Below, piece after piece: positions 669 through 3,355 of a stretch of DNA of 13,006 nucleotides. A program made the position numbers and the translations under genes. The DNA lies in the NCBI GenBank assembly GCA_018110855.1, contig JAGBFZ010000299.1, positions 1 to 13,006 of the forward strand, in the 5' to 3' direction. Below the pieces are notes generated by a model that did not search any database, had not been told where the DNA came from, and saw nothing but the letters and a program-made list of their open reading frames with translations. Every line of letters starts with the position of its first letter. Within the stretch, counting starts at the first letter, position 1. The DNA is from Oscillospiraceae bacterium (GTDB taxonomy: Bacteria > Bacillota > Clostridia > Oscillospirales > Ruminococcaceae).

Positions 669-710
669 AAAGCTGCCCTGCTTTTATCGGCGGGGCAGCT
701 TTTTATTATT
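669..710 (+). terminator. Intrinsic terminator of glgP, facing the antiporter gene
   Basis: A 13-bp stem (669-681 with 690-702, one G-U pair) with an 8-base loop is followed by a T-rich run. It lies 24 bases after the glgP stop. The flanking AT-rich arms also give a weak U-rich tail on the minus strand, so it may end both convergent transcripts. The last bases overlap the stop codon (706-708) of the minus-strand antiporter gene. Confidence 0.88.
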
Positions 711-1893
711 CAGAATCATCGGACAGGAGCTTTGCGAAGCTGTTGTCTATACCTATTGCTCCCAGAGGGGCGGTTATTATTATGGCGAGGACTGCTACCG
801 ACAGGATCATTTTGCCGCCGGGAAGCCCTGCTGCGAGAGGTACGGCTCCGAATGCTGCCTGCACTGTGGCTTTCGGAAGATAGGCTATTATGCAGAATAT
901 CCTTTCCTTTATGCTGAGCTTTGTTTTTACGAGGCAGAGTATCACTCCCACTGTGCGGAAGCAGAGGGATATAAATATTATTGCTATGGCTCCCATGCCT
1001 GCTGCCATGGTATAGCGGATATCCACTGCCGCTCCCACAAGGGCAAATAACAGACATTCTGCTGCTATCCAGAGCTTTCCGAATTTGGCGGAGAGCTTTT
1101 TTGTCTGCTCCGATGATGTTCTCAGCTTGAGGACGCACGCCATGGACACTACGGCAAGAAGTCCCGAGAGGGCTATGTGATCCTTTGCCCATGTTTCTAT
1201 GGTCATCAGCATGAAGGCGGACGAGAGAAGAATGATGGTTTGGGTGGTGCTGCGGATATTTGCGGAGCTGAATATTTTTCCGAGCATTGCTCCCGCAATT
1301 GCGCCCAGTGCTGCTCCGAGTATTATGGATATGGGGATATCCCACAGGCTTGCGGCATTGAAGCTGCCGCTTTGCGCCATGGTGAGAAATGCGGATATCA
1401 GCACGATGACAAAGATATCGTCGCAGGAGGCTCCTGCAAGGATAAGCTGGGGAACACCTGTTTTTGTTCCTCTCTTTTCCTCGATGAGCTTTACCATTCG
1501 GGGAACTACCACTGCGGGGGACACTGCGCTCAGCACTGCTCCCATGACTGCCGCTTCGCTTCGGCTTATCCCGAAAATTATGGGGGCAAATATCACATAG
1601 CCCGTTATTTCAAAGGCGGCTGGGAGAAAGGACATAAGCACTGCGGGTCTGCCTATCTTTTTCAGGTCGGACAGGTCGAGAGACAGTCCTGCTTTTATGA
1701 GAATTATTATCAGCGACATTTTCCGAAGCTCGGCGGATATCCCAAGAATTGACGGGTCGAGAAGGTCAAGGACGTATGGTCCGATGATCATCCCTGCGGC
1801 GAGTATCCCAATTATCCTTGGGAGCTTTATTCTTCGGAATATTTCTGCGGCGCTAAAGCCCACTATAAATATTAGCCCAAGTGAAAATAACAT
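706..1893 (-). CDS. Cation:proton antiporter, NHA/CPA2-like, under fluoride riboswitch control
   Basis: This is a polytopic membrane protein of 395 residues with about 11-13 hydrophobic segments, resembling the NHA branch of monovalent cation:proton antiporters. Visible family features are the N-terminal LPRIIGILAAGMIIGP, the LSAVSPAVVVP helix (about 121-131), a paired-aspartate ion site in GASCDD (158-159) and the YLPKATVQAA motif (about 338-347). The start is placed at the ATG ending at 1893 because GGAGG (1901-1905) is 7 bases upstream of it. An ATG two codons earlier (1897-1899) is only 1 base from that site and is unlikely to be used. The gene is transcribed alone from a consensus promoter through a fluoride riboswitch, so its likely job is fluoride tolerance, for example by adjusting proton or sodium balance. 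Sodium/proton antiporters are, as I recall, among the gene classes reported under this riboswitch. The transported ion is not provable from sequence. Confidence 0.9.
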   Translation of the reverse strand: MLFSLGLIFIVGFSAAEIFRRIKLPRIIGILAAGMIIGPYVLDLLDPSILGISAELRKMSLIIILIKAGLSLDLSDLKKIGRPAVLMSFLPAAFEITGYVIFAPIIFGISRSEAAVMGAVLSAVSPAVVVPRMVKLIEEKRGTKTGVPQLILAGASCDDIFVIVLISAFLTMAQSGSFNAASLWDIPISIILGAALGAIAGAMLGKIFSSANIRSTTQTIILLSSAFMLMTIETWAKDHIALSGLLAVVSMACVLKLRTSSEQTKKLSAKFGKLWIAAECLLFALVGAAVDIRYTMAAGMGAIAIIFISLCFRTVGVILCLVKTKLSIKERIFCIIAYLPKATVQAAFGAVPLAAGLPGGKMILSVAVLAIIITAPLGAIGIDNSFAKLLSDDSE

Positions 1894-1913
1894 ATTCATT
1901 CCTCCATTAATCT

Positions 1914-1957
1914 AAAAAAGCCGACAACTTCTGCGTAAGATCGCAGACGTCATCAGC
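1914..1957 (-). terminator. Riboswitch-controlled intrinsic terminator upstream of the antiporter
   Basis: On the minus strand, left arm 1957-1942 pairs with right arm 1935-1920 around the loop AUCUUA. This gives 16 positions with a single G-A mismatch and a few G-U pairs, followed by six U residues (1919-1914). The left arm consists of the 3' part of the fluoride aptamer, including its GCUGAUGA segment and the ACGUC pseudoknot strand. Terminator and ligand-bound aptamer therefore cannot form together. This predicts termination without fluoride and read-through into the antiporter gene with fluoride. Confidence 0.88.
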
Positions 1958-2009
1958 TTGTTAAGGCGGTTTTGATTTTTTTAAAATCAAGGGAGAACAT
2001 CATTCCCTG
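1942..2009 (-). promoter_or_regulatory. Fluoride riboswitch aptamer (crcB motif)
   Basis: Read on the minus strand, the RNA begins with hairpin AGGGA/UCCCU (2008-2004 with 1994-1990) whose loop is AUGAUGUUC. It continues with an AT-rich insert hairpin (1989-1973), then AAACCGC (1972-1966) and GCUGAUGACGUCUGC (1957-1943). These match, in order and spacing, the crcB-motif elements as I know them: GG..AUG..GUUC..CC, AACCGC and GCUGAUGA...CUAC. The diagnostic pseudoknot is present: GAUGU in the first loop (2001-1997) pairs with ACGUC (1950-1946), including one G-U. Deviations are CUGC in place of the usual CUAC and an extra AT hairpin in the linker. The aptamer starts within about 3 bases of the predicted transcript start, and its 3' half is shared with the terminator. 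Identification is from memory of the consensus; a covariance-model scan was not possible. Confidence 0.87.
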
Positions 2010-2017
2010 TTTTTTTT

Positions 2018-2046
2018 ATTATAGCATGGTTTCTTTTATTTGTCAA
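2018..2046 (-). promoter_or_regulatory. Sigma-A promoter of the fluoride riboswitch-antiporter transcript
   Basis: On the minus strand, TTGACA (2046-2041), a 17-bp spacer and TATAAT (2023-2018) match the sigma-A consensus exactly. The predicted start near 2011 lies just before the first aptamer hairpin. Such a strong constitutive promoter suits control by transcription termination rather than by initiation. Confidence 0.92.
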
Positions 2047-2359: not shown

Positions 2360-3355
2360 TTATGACTTTATCTCGCTGATAACGTTCTTTAACTCTTCGA
2401 TTCCCGATACTGCTTCGGATATCAGCTCGGAGGCGTCCTTTGCGCTGTTGTTGATATCTGCGGCGCAGCTTCCGATGCTCTTGATCTTCTGCTCAATGGT
2501 ATCGGCTGAGGTCTTGGAGGTGTCTGCAAGGCTTCTTACCTCCTGCGCGATAACGCCGAAGCCCTTACCGCTTTCCTTGGCTCTGGACGCTTCGATAGAC
2601 GCATTGAAGCCAAGTATTCTGGTATTCATTGCGATATCCAGTATTACCTTTGCGGCATCGTTTGCGGTCTTTACCTCGCCGACGCACTTTTCTGCAATGT
2701 TTGAAAGCTGTCTGAAGGTCTCGTCCATTCGGGAAACGGCGGTTATGCAGCCCTCGGCAATGTTGTTTACCCTGCGGATAATATCGTTTGTGGCGGTCAT
2801 GTTGCTTGACAGGGCGCTGTTATTTTCCTTCATGCAATAGCTGGAATATGCCATTGCGGAGATGTTCTTTGCAATGGTATGCAGGAATCTTGCAGCTGCT
2901 TCCACTCTCTCCTTGGGTACTATCTTTACCTTTCTGAGAGCTGCGATATATTCATCGGGATTGATGCCAAGCTCCGCTGCTATCCTGCGGAATTTGTTCT
3001 CATCGGGCTTTTCTGTGAGTACCTGTCCGCCGATGAAGGAACCTATAAATTCCCCGTTTACCATTATGGGTGCAGCAAAGTCCATAAGTCCTGCATGGCA
3101 GGGATATGCTGCGGCTCTTCCCGTGCGGTGGGTCTGCTCGCCGCCCTCACGGTCGCAGCGTTCACATCTCTCGCAGCCCAGCTTGGAGCGGCGGGTATAT
3201 TTCATGCAGAAATCGGTGAAGTTGCTGCCCTTTGTAACAGGGTTGCCATCGGCGTCTGTGGTGAGCGCTGCCATTCCCGTTACCTCGGCAAAGCCGTCCT
3301 GTATCTCCTGAAGGACGCGGACATCAATAAGTTCTGTAAGCTTTAAGGATGACAT
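2360..3355 (-). CDS. Soluble PocR-domain sensor with short chemoreceptor signalling domain
   Basis: This is a 331-residue protein. Residues about 5-170 form a PocR-type sensory domain, recognisable by NFTDFC, the cysteine group GCERCERC (61, 64, 67) and YPCHAGLMDFAAPI followed by GSFIGGQVL. Residues about 180-331 are helical and contain a degenerate methyl-accepting hairpin tip: NTRILGFNASIEASRAK, then GKGFGVIAQEVRSLA. There is no transmembrane segment, so it should act in the cytoplasm, perhaps sensing a small metabolite and signalling to CheA/CheW-type partners; none are encoded nearby. The signalling domain is much shorter than in a standard receptor. GGAGG (3365-3369) lies 9 bases before the ATG, and a consensus promoter lies further upstream. 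The YjfB-like gene follows in the same transcript. The domain calls are firm. The ligand is unknown, and PocR domains have been linked to hydrocarbon-derivative or propanediol sensing elsewhere. Confidence 0.88.
   Translation of the reverse strand: MSSLKLTELIDVRVLQEIQDGFAEVTGMAALTTDADGNPVTKGSNFTDFCMKYTRRSKLGCERCERCDREGGEQTHRTGRAAAYPCHAGLMDFAAPIMVNGEFIGSFIGGQVLTEKPDENKFRRIAAELGINPDEYIAALRKVKIVPKERVEAAARFLHTIAKNISAMAYSSYCMKENNSALSSNMTATNDIIRRVNNIAEGCITAVSRMDETFRQLSNIAEKCVGEVKTANDAAKVILDIAMNTRILGFNASIEASRAKESGKGFGVIAQEVRSLADTSKTSADTIEQKIKSIGSCAADINNSAKDASELISEAVSGIEELKNVISEIKS

Follow-up and report, generated by a model that had tools for sequence, protein, structure and literature searches.

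A fluoride riboswitch overlapping a predicted terminator precedes an NHA-type antiporter whose Clostridia carriers mostly lack detected CrcB and CLC-F exporters

Organisation of the locus

The stretch of DNA analysed here, called the window, is 13,006 nt long and carries on its minus strand a sigma-A promoter, a fluoride riboswitch aptamer, an intrinsic terminator and the gene of an NHA/SLC9B-type antiporter (Table 1). The antiporter looks like a one-gene unit. The window also encodes, at 2360-3355(-), a 331-aa protein in which a chemoreceptor signalling domain comes after a PocR sensory domain.

Table 1. Positions of the riboswitch, expression signals and antiporter gene in the window
Feature	Positions	Strand	Description
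Sigma-A promoter TTGACA-17-TATAAT, TG before -10	2018..2046	-	12/12 consensus positions
Fluoride riboswitch aptamer RF01734	1937..2016	-	covariance-model match, full model
P1 hairpin, loop holding pseudoknot 5' side GAUGU (2001-1997)	1990..2008	-	model alignment, fold
AT-rich hairpin in the P1-P2 linker	1973..1989	-	fold; insert relative to the Rfam consensus
P2, 3/4 consensus pairs and one C.A mismatch	1956..1967	-	Rfam alignment
ACGUC, pseudoknot 3' side	1946..1950	-	5/5 pairs with GAUGU
Intrinsic terminator	1914..1959	-	left arm 1959-1942, right arm 1935-1918, U-run 1919-1914
NHA/SLC9B-type antiporter	706..1893	-	395 aa from ATG 1893; 397 aa from ATG 1899
Terminator-like hairpin	669..702		between the antiporter and the convergent glycogen phosphorylase gene

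Identity and anatomy of the aptamer

Scanning the window with the Rfam covariance models returned a single match at the gathering level, RF01734 at 1937-2016(-), which covers the full length of the model (positions 1-64) with 45.8 bits for a gathering cut-off of 34 and an E-value of 3.5e-10. It is also the only RF01734 match across the assembly from which the window comes. The E-value and the overlapping terminator rule out a chance match, and the RNA class that a sequence-only reading had proposed from individual motifs is borne out by the covariance model.

P1 is formed by AGGGA/UCCCU and closes the loop AUGAUGUUC. The pseudoknot GAUGU/ACGUC claimed by the sequence-only reading does form all of its pairs; P2 contains the one C.A mismatch, a correction to that reading. 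These elements were compared within a set of 82 leaders, of which 2 belong to crcB and some come from genomes that occur in two collections. In the 80 leaders that could be parsed for the pseudoknot (2 of the 82 could not), 45 form it in full, 29 with one internal mismatch and 6 with fewer or other pairs; the middle pair is U.G in the window versus A-U in 32 leaders. UCUG stands in place of UCUA in 72 of the 75 leaders parsed by a separate script, which left 7 of the 82 unparsed. The aptamer spans 71-78 nt in most matches from the family and near relatives, so that the linker insert is common among them, and 58-63 nt in many distant matches. Thus the CUGC tail and the extra linker hairpin are present as the sequence-only reading had described them, but they are the norm of the bacterial group and not odd, which rules out regarding this aptamer as unusual. 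With respect to the RF01734 consensus, the window shares the full-length match above cut-off and a predicted terminator-type ON layout; it departs from it by the CUGC tail and the linker hairpin, both usual in the group, and by the one C.A in P2.

The closest relative found (L032:2304-2464, with an 88% identical antiporter) has an aptamer of 161 nt. Its 81 additional nt lie within P2, contain a 13-bp inverted repeat as judged by eye and resemble a small inserted element; the RF01734 score is down to 31.1 bits.

Promoter and terminator

The perfect sigma-A promoter of the sequence-only reading was recovered at 2046-2018(-). It ends at 2018, one base ahead of the RF01734 match. The exact TTGACA-17-TATAAT pattern occurs twice in the window (this promoter and one more) and in none of 200 shuffles. 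From the promoter spacing, transcription would start near 2011, at the foot of P1 or just before it.

The terminator is predicted to fold, at -23.4 kcal/mol (z -5.7), into a 17-pair stem with a single internal mismatch, and U6 follows it. The terminator, the six U and the use of the aptamer 3' half as left arm stand as previously described, that description counting 16 stem positions. As the left arm, 1959-1942, sits in the 3' half of the aptamer, whose tail thus enters the terminator stem, the aptamer and the terminator cannot form together in the predicted structure; the same sharing upholds the terminator logic of the earlier reading. Ahead of a U-run, the same stretch reaches a folding energy of -10 kcal/mol or lower in 79 of the 82 leaders, that of the window among them.

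The antiporter protein

Translation likely starts at ATG 1893, located 6 nt after GGAGGA, rather than at ATG 1899. The protein contains a PF00999 domain (E 8.8e-45), and a sequence comparison with solved structures places two chains of NHA2 nearest to it (E 3.8e-32 and 5.4e-32, human and bison according to their titles), the identity to NHA2 being 30%. An AlphaFold2 model built from a 30-row alignment (mean pLDDT 83.4, pTM 0.80) superposes on 7b4l with a TM-score of 0.91. The assignment to the NHA type (SLC9B, CPA2) made from the sequence alone is therefore sound. With the antiporter models of NCBIfam (PRK05326 models for K+/H+ antiporters, CPA2 2a37) the protein scored below the cut-offs, at 65.3 versus 355, 55.2 versus 238.3 and 37.5 versus 309 bits.

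Excerpts of PMC8850199 describe seven side chains at the ion site of NHA2: D277, D278, E214, R431, W456, K459 and T461. Six of them are kept (D277-D278 as D160-D161, E214 as E97, R431 as R315, K459 as K343 and T461 as T345), so that the residues of both the DD ion site and the NHA2-specific Glu-Arg salt bridge, whose roles are taken from the same excerpts, are present. The seventh, W456, corresponds to Y340, with Y in 98% of the 124 rows of the clade. In these rows the conservation is 0.99 for each of D160 and D161 and 1.0 for E97 and R315, and neither an anion-binding motif nor an anion-site signature was found. Compared with NHA2/SLC9B2 (7b4l, 7p1k), the bacterial antiporter thus shares the DD motif, the E214-R431 pair, K459 and T461, and it differs by the Y in place of W456, by a shorter N-terminus and by the fluoride riboswitch ahead of its gene.

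Linkage of riboswitch and antiporter in relatives

The clade of window-type antiporters was delimited by scores of at least 200 bits, versus at most 67 bits for the next CPA relatives examined. Within GTDB genomes, 61 antiporter loci were collected and 60 of them scanned with Rfam at the gathering level; RF01734 lay ahead of the antiporter in 48. In five of the 61 a contig end removes the upstream DNA (L068, L072, L077, L091 and L092). The 56 loci with an intact 5' end thus comprise the 48 above threshold, 4 with a sub-threshold aptamer of 25-33 bits at the right place (L032, L059, L066 and L079) and 4 in which no RF01734 was found before the antiporter (L061, L067, L081 and L090). The riboswitch label applies to 111 of the 124 distinct clade proteins placed on a tree, 4 of these labels resting on sub-threshold matches (L032, L059, L066 and L132), and the 13 unlabelled proteins are scattered over it.

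Among 148 genomes of the family, RF01734 was detected at 44 places in 41 genomes, 5 places being below the curated cut-off. The window-type antiporter directly follows at 36 of the 44 places, in 35 genomes, and is the commonest use of the fluoride riboswitch in this gut-bacterial family, where the sequence-only reading had counted sodium/proton antiporters among its rarer targets. The remaining 8 places include crcB (G023, G033) and CLC-F (G025, G137). No riboswitch was found before the antiporter in 3 of the 38 family genomes that have one (G046, G081 and G145), and a laxer aptamer search of G081 stretches found nothing.

A class sample of 343 Clostridia genomes of at least 90% completeness was surveyed as well. 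RF01734 occupies 99 places in 81 of them, and at 48 of these places, spread over 47 genomes, the antiporter comes next. In 9 of the 56 class genomes with an antiporter no riboswitch was detected before it; a laxer aptamer search of stretches from these nine gave one 19.9-bit trace (G339).

A decayed remnant of the same antiporter follows a strong fluoride riboswitch (58 bits) at L241 (G421).

Distribution of the antiporter and of known fluoride exporters

The search for CrcB (PF02537), which matches 10 of 14 control genomes, gave no match in the window's own assembly, itself incomplete and mixed (455 contigs, 95.04% complete, 6.25% contaminated). The earlier remark that no crcB gene is adjacent thus holds and extends to the whole assembly. 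CLC-F proteins are recognised by the signatures GNNLI/GMGLI, GREGT/V and GEVTP, as given in excerpts of PMC11139923. The sole CLC of the assembly is a fragment (C132) whose third motif reads GEIVP instead of GEVTP, the first two motifs lying outside the fragment, so that a hidden CLC-F is ruled out at the motif covered. Apart from the antiporter, no riboswitch-controlled fluoride unit was detected in this genome.

Within the family, the antiporter clade was identified in 38 genomes, CrcB in 19 and CLC-F in 3 (G025, G137 and G054). None of the 38 is among the 22 exporter genomes, for 5.6 expected (P 8e-4); this P value and all other co-occurrence P values ignore relatedness, treat genomes as independent and are descriptive. 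The 38 include broken (split or stop-bearing) or cut antiporter copies (G062, G086, G101, G145) and partial ones (G007, G031, G046). In all 17 family antiporter genomes with a CLC match the three CLC-F signatures were read and no complete set was found, one or two motifs being uncovered by sequence in G000, G057 and G116. More distant CPA paralogues exhibit no exclusion: they occur in 11 of 19 crcB genomes, compared with 60 of the 110 genomes that lack the clade. The window's genus is represented in the family sample by one further genome, G090, in which neither the antiporter nor CrcB nor CLC-F was found.

In the class sample, the antiporter is present in 56 genomes and CrcB in 72, and both occur in 1 (G465) for 11.8 expected (P 9e-6). 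Counted by genera, the antiporter is found in 47 and CrcB in 49 of 199, with one genome having both. With CLC-F added, exporters are present in 82 genomes and overlap with 3 of the 56 antiporter genomes (G403, G443 and G465), for 13.4 expected (P 9e-5). The CLC-F count required an E-value of at most 1e-60 to one query, plus the signatures, a strict single-query criterion by which CLC-F is undercounted (G449 surfaced later); three proteins counted as CLC-F in the two samples are off in one motif (G054 GEVAP, G313 GREGA, G443 GEVVP). A second CLC-F query covered only genomes with the antiporter, 33 of the 56, which biases the count towards finding overlap. Four antiporter genomes (G282, G327, G420 and G428) encode ambiguous CLC proteins (L294-L297), 48-52% identical to a CLC-F, that read GND, GREGA and GEVIP instead of the CLC-F signatures. 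When these four are counted as exporter genomes the overlap becomes 7 versus 14.0 expected (P 0.01).

The exclusion depends on the closeness to the window's antiporter. With antiporters at least 47% identical to it, the overlap is 0 of 30 for 7.2 expected, the P value of 2e-4 being descriptive because the split was placed once the genomes with both were known. Antiporters under 47% identity show a weak exclusion, with 3 of 26 versus 6.2 expected and 4 more genomes carrying ambiguous CLC proteins.

Neither CrcB nor CLC-F was detected in 45 of the 47 riboswitch-antiporter class genomes in the first survey, and in 44 once G403 had been found; three of these 44 (G282, G327, G420) carry ambiguous CLC proteins. 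This absence is not special to the carriers, since in 209 of the 343 Clostridia genomes the searches found no transporter of any of the three types. In G403 a CLC reading GNNII, GREGT and GEVTP (L298, G403:C19:1610-2797) is divergent from a riboswitch-antiporter pair, and these neighbours are the closest case of both together, G443 and G465 being the other genomes with both.

In six genera of the class sample and three of the family sample (g6, g14 and g29), some sampled species have the antiporter, others crcB and none both. A swap of antiporter and crcB in the same slot was considered for 12 pairs of sister species from 8 genera. Nine pairs share no flanking ORF, g209 and g138 share weak matches only, and in g188 (L283, L285) two neighbouring genes are shared, with the antiporter and crcB on different strands with respect to these genes. 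This comparison of flanks does not support a clean in-place swap.

Interpretation

Control of Na+/H+ antiporters by fluoride riboswitches is already known: according to excerpts of PMC11139923, these antiporters are the next-most common association of the riboswitch after exporters and are explained by pH homeostasis, in part since Fluc and CLC-F need the proton-motive force for export. The same excerpts count two bacterial fluoride exporter families, Fluc and CLC-F, described as 'usually mutually exclusive'. The window shares the pairing of riboswitch and Na+/H+ antiporter with the systems of these excerpts and with CD0656-CD0657 of Clostridioides difficile (excerpts of PMC11477304). The window's antiporter is of NHA/SLC9B type and the sole gene of its unit. 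In CD0656-CD0657 the antiporter follows a CLC, whereas the genomes with a window-type antiporter are mostly without detected Fluc or CLC-F. Fluc/CrcB and CLC-F have the same switch as the window's antiporter and apparently the same niche, the response to fluoride, but they belong to other protein families and rarely share a genome with it. The pH-homeostasis explanation sits least easily with genomes in which no exporter is found, and a riboswitch link conserved across many Clostridia lineages, mostly without detected exporter, fits poorly with a pH-support role. It raises the question whether an NHA antiporter alone is enough for fluoride tolerance, and whether it moves F-.

We tentatively favour, at somewhat less than an even chance, a fluoride ON-switch in control of an antiporter that gives fluoride tolerance on its own, most likely as a Na+/H+ exchanger, and not as a helper of Fluc or CLC-F. 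Without fluoride, the growing RNA would fold the terminator and transcription would stop ahead of the antiporter gene. Mg-bound fluoride would stabilise the P1-loop pseudoknot, hold the 3' half of the aptamer and prevent the terminator, upon which the antiporter would be made. The latter, as an NHA/SLC9B-type cation/proton exchanger, would act as a stand-alone tolerance transporter; its exchange of Na+ for H+ would reset the pH difference behind HF entry and F- trapping. Computation shows the promoter, the aptamer, the terminator, the family of the gene, the conservation of the linkage and how scarce known exporters are in carriers; we infer fluoride binding, induction, the substrate and this physiological effect, and with them the role of the antiporter as a fluoride-tolerance protein. 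Cation/H+ exchange is preferred as the activity, since the ion site of NHA2 is kept almost entirely. The antiporter may be the main fluoride defence of its carriers, as mostly no known exporter was found in their genomes. The tolerance reading and the auxiliary, direct-export and decay readings considered below exclude each other.

It seems rather unlikely that the antiporter is an auxiliary of pH homeostasis, repairing acidification or supporting the proton-motive force, with a known exporter missed or unneeded. This is the view printed in PMC11139923 for riboswitch-linked Na+/H+ antiporters, as far as its excerpts go, and those of PMC11477304 place a CLC and an NhaP-type antiporter of C. difficile in one riboswitch operon; the antiporter relative beside a CLC in G403 and the presence of both in G443 and G465 are in keeping with it. 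The 44 riboswitch-antiporter class genomes in which neither CrcB nor CLC-F was found argue against it, even with the ambiguous CLC of three of them.

We consider it unlikely that the antiporter itself exports fluoride in a proton-coupled manner, as one of a bacterial family of exporters that has the NhaA/CPA fold and takes the place of Fluc and CLC-F. The near-exclusion of known exporters in carriers, which resembles that of Fluc versus CLC-F, and the distant CPA paralogues showing no exclusion would both be consistent with such an activity. Drosophila Nha1, a member of the NHA family, has been proposed to be an H+-Cl- cotransporter, according to excerpts of the review PMC9174904, and this precedent makes direct F- export less outlandish. 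Against it, the NHA2 ion site is kept except for the W456 to Y change, no anion-binding motif was found in the clade and, from the same excerpts, human NHA1 shows no residue change favouring Cl-. Searches of open-licence PMC papers turned up none that presents this clade as exporting fluoride. Improbable as we judge it, riboswitch-controlled NHA antiporters of Clostridia could represent a third kind of bacterial fluoride exporter, and animal NHA1/NHA2 might share a halide-proton chemistry.

That the RNA is real by sequence but decayed, the gene being constitutive, is very improbable: the C.A mismatch in P2 and the lengthened P2 of the sibling L032 would agree with it, but the pseudoknot, the terminator and the core motifs of the window are intact and the aptamer scores well above cut-off.

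Other fluoride riboswitches in the surveyed genomes

The fluoride riboswitches of L245 (G220) and L246 (G335) adjoin other genes, presumably encoding an enolase and a dynamin-like protein, respectively. Fluoride aptamers also occur as tandem pairs at G326:C11:68817-68968 (L244) and G419:C42:372-540 (L272). The G326 pair precedes a different CPA antiporter. G419 has a riboswitch-crcB pair in addition; of the close relative of the G326 antiporter found with its tandem aptamers, no more than the C-terminal part is seen as an ORF.
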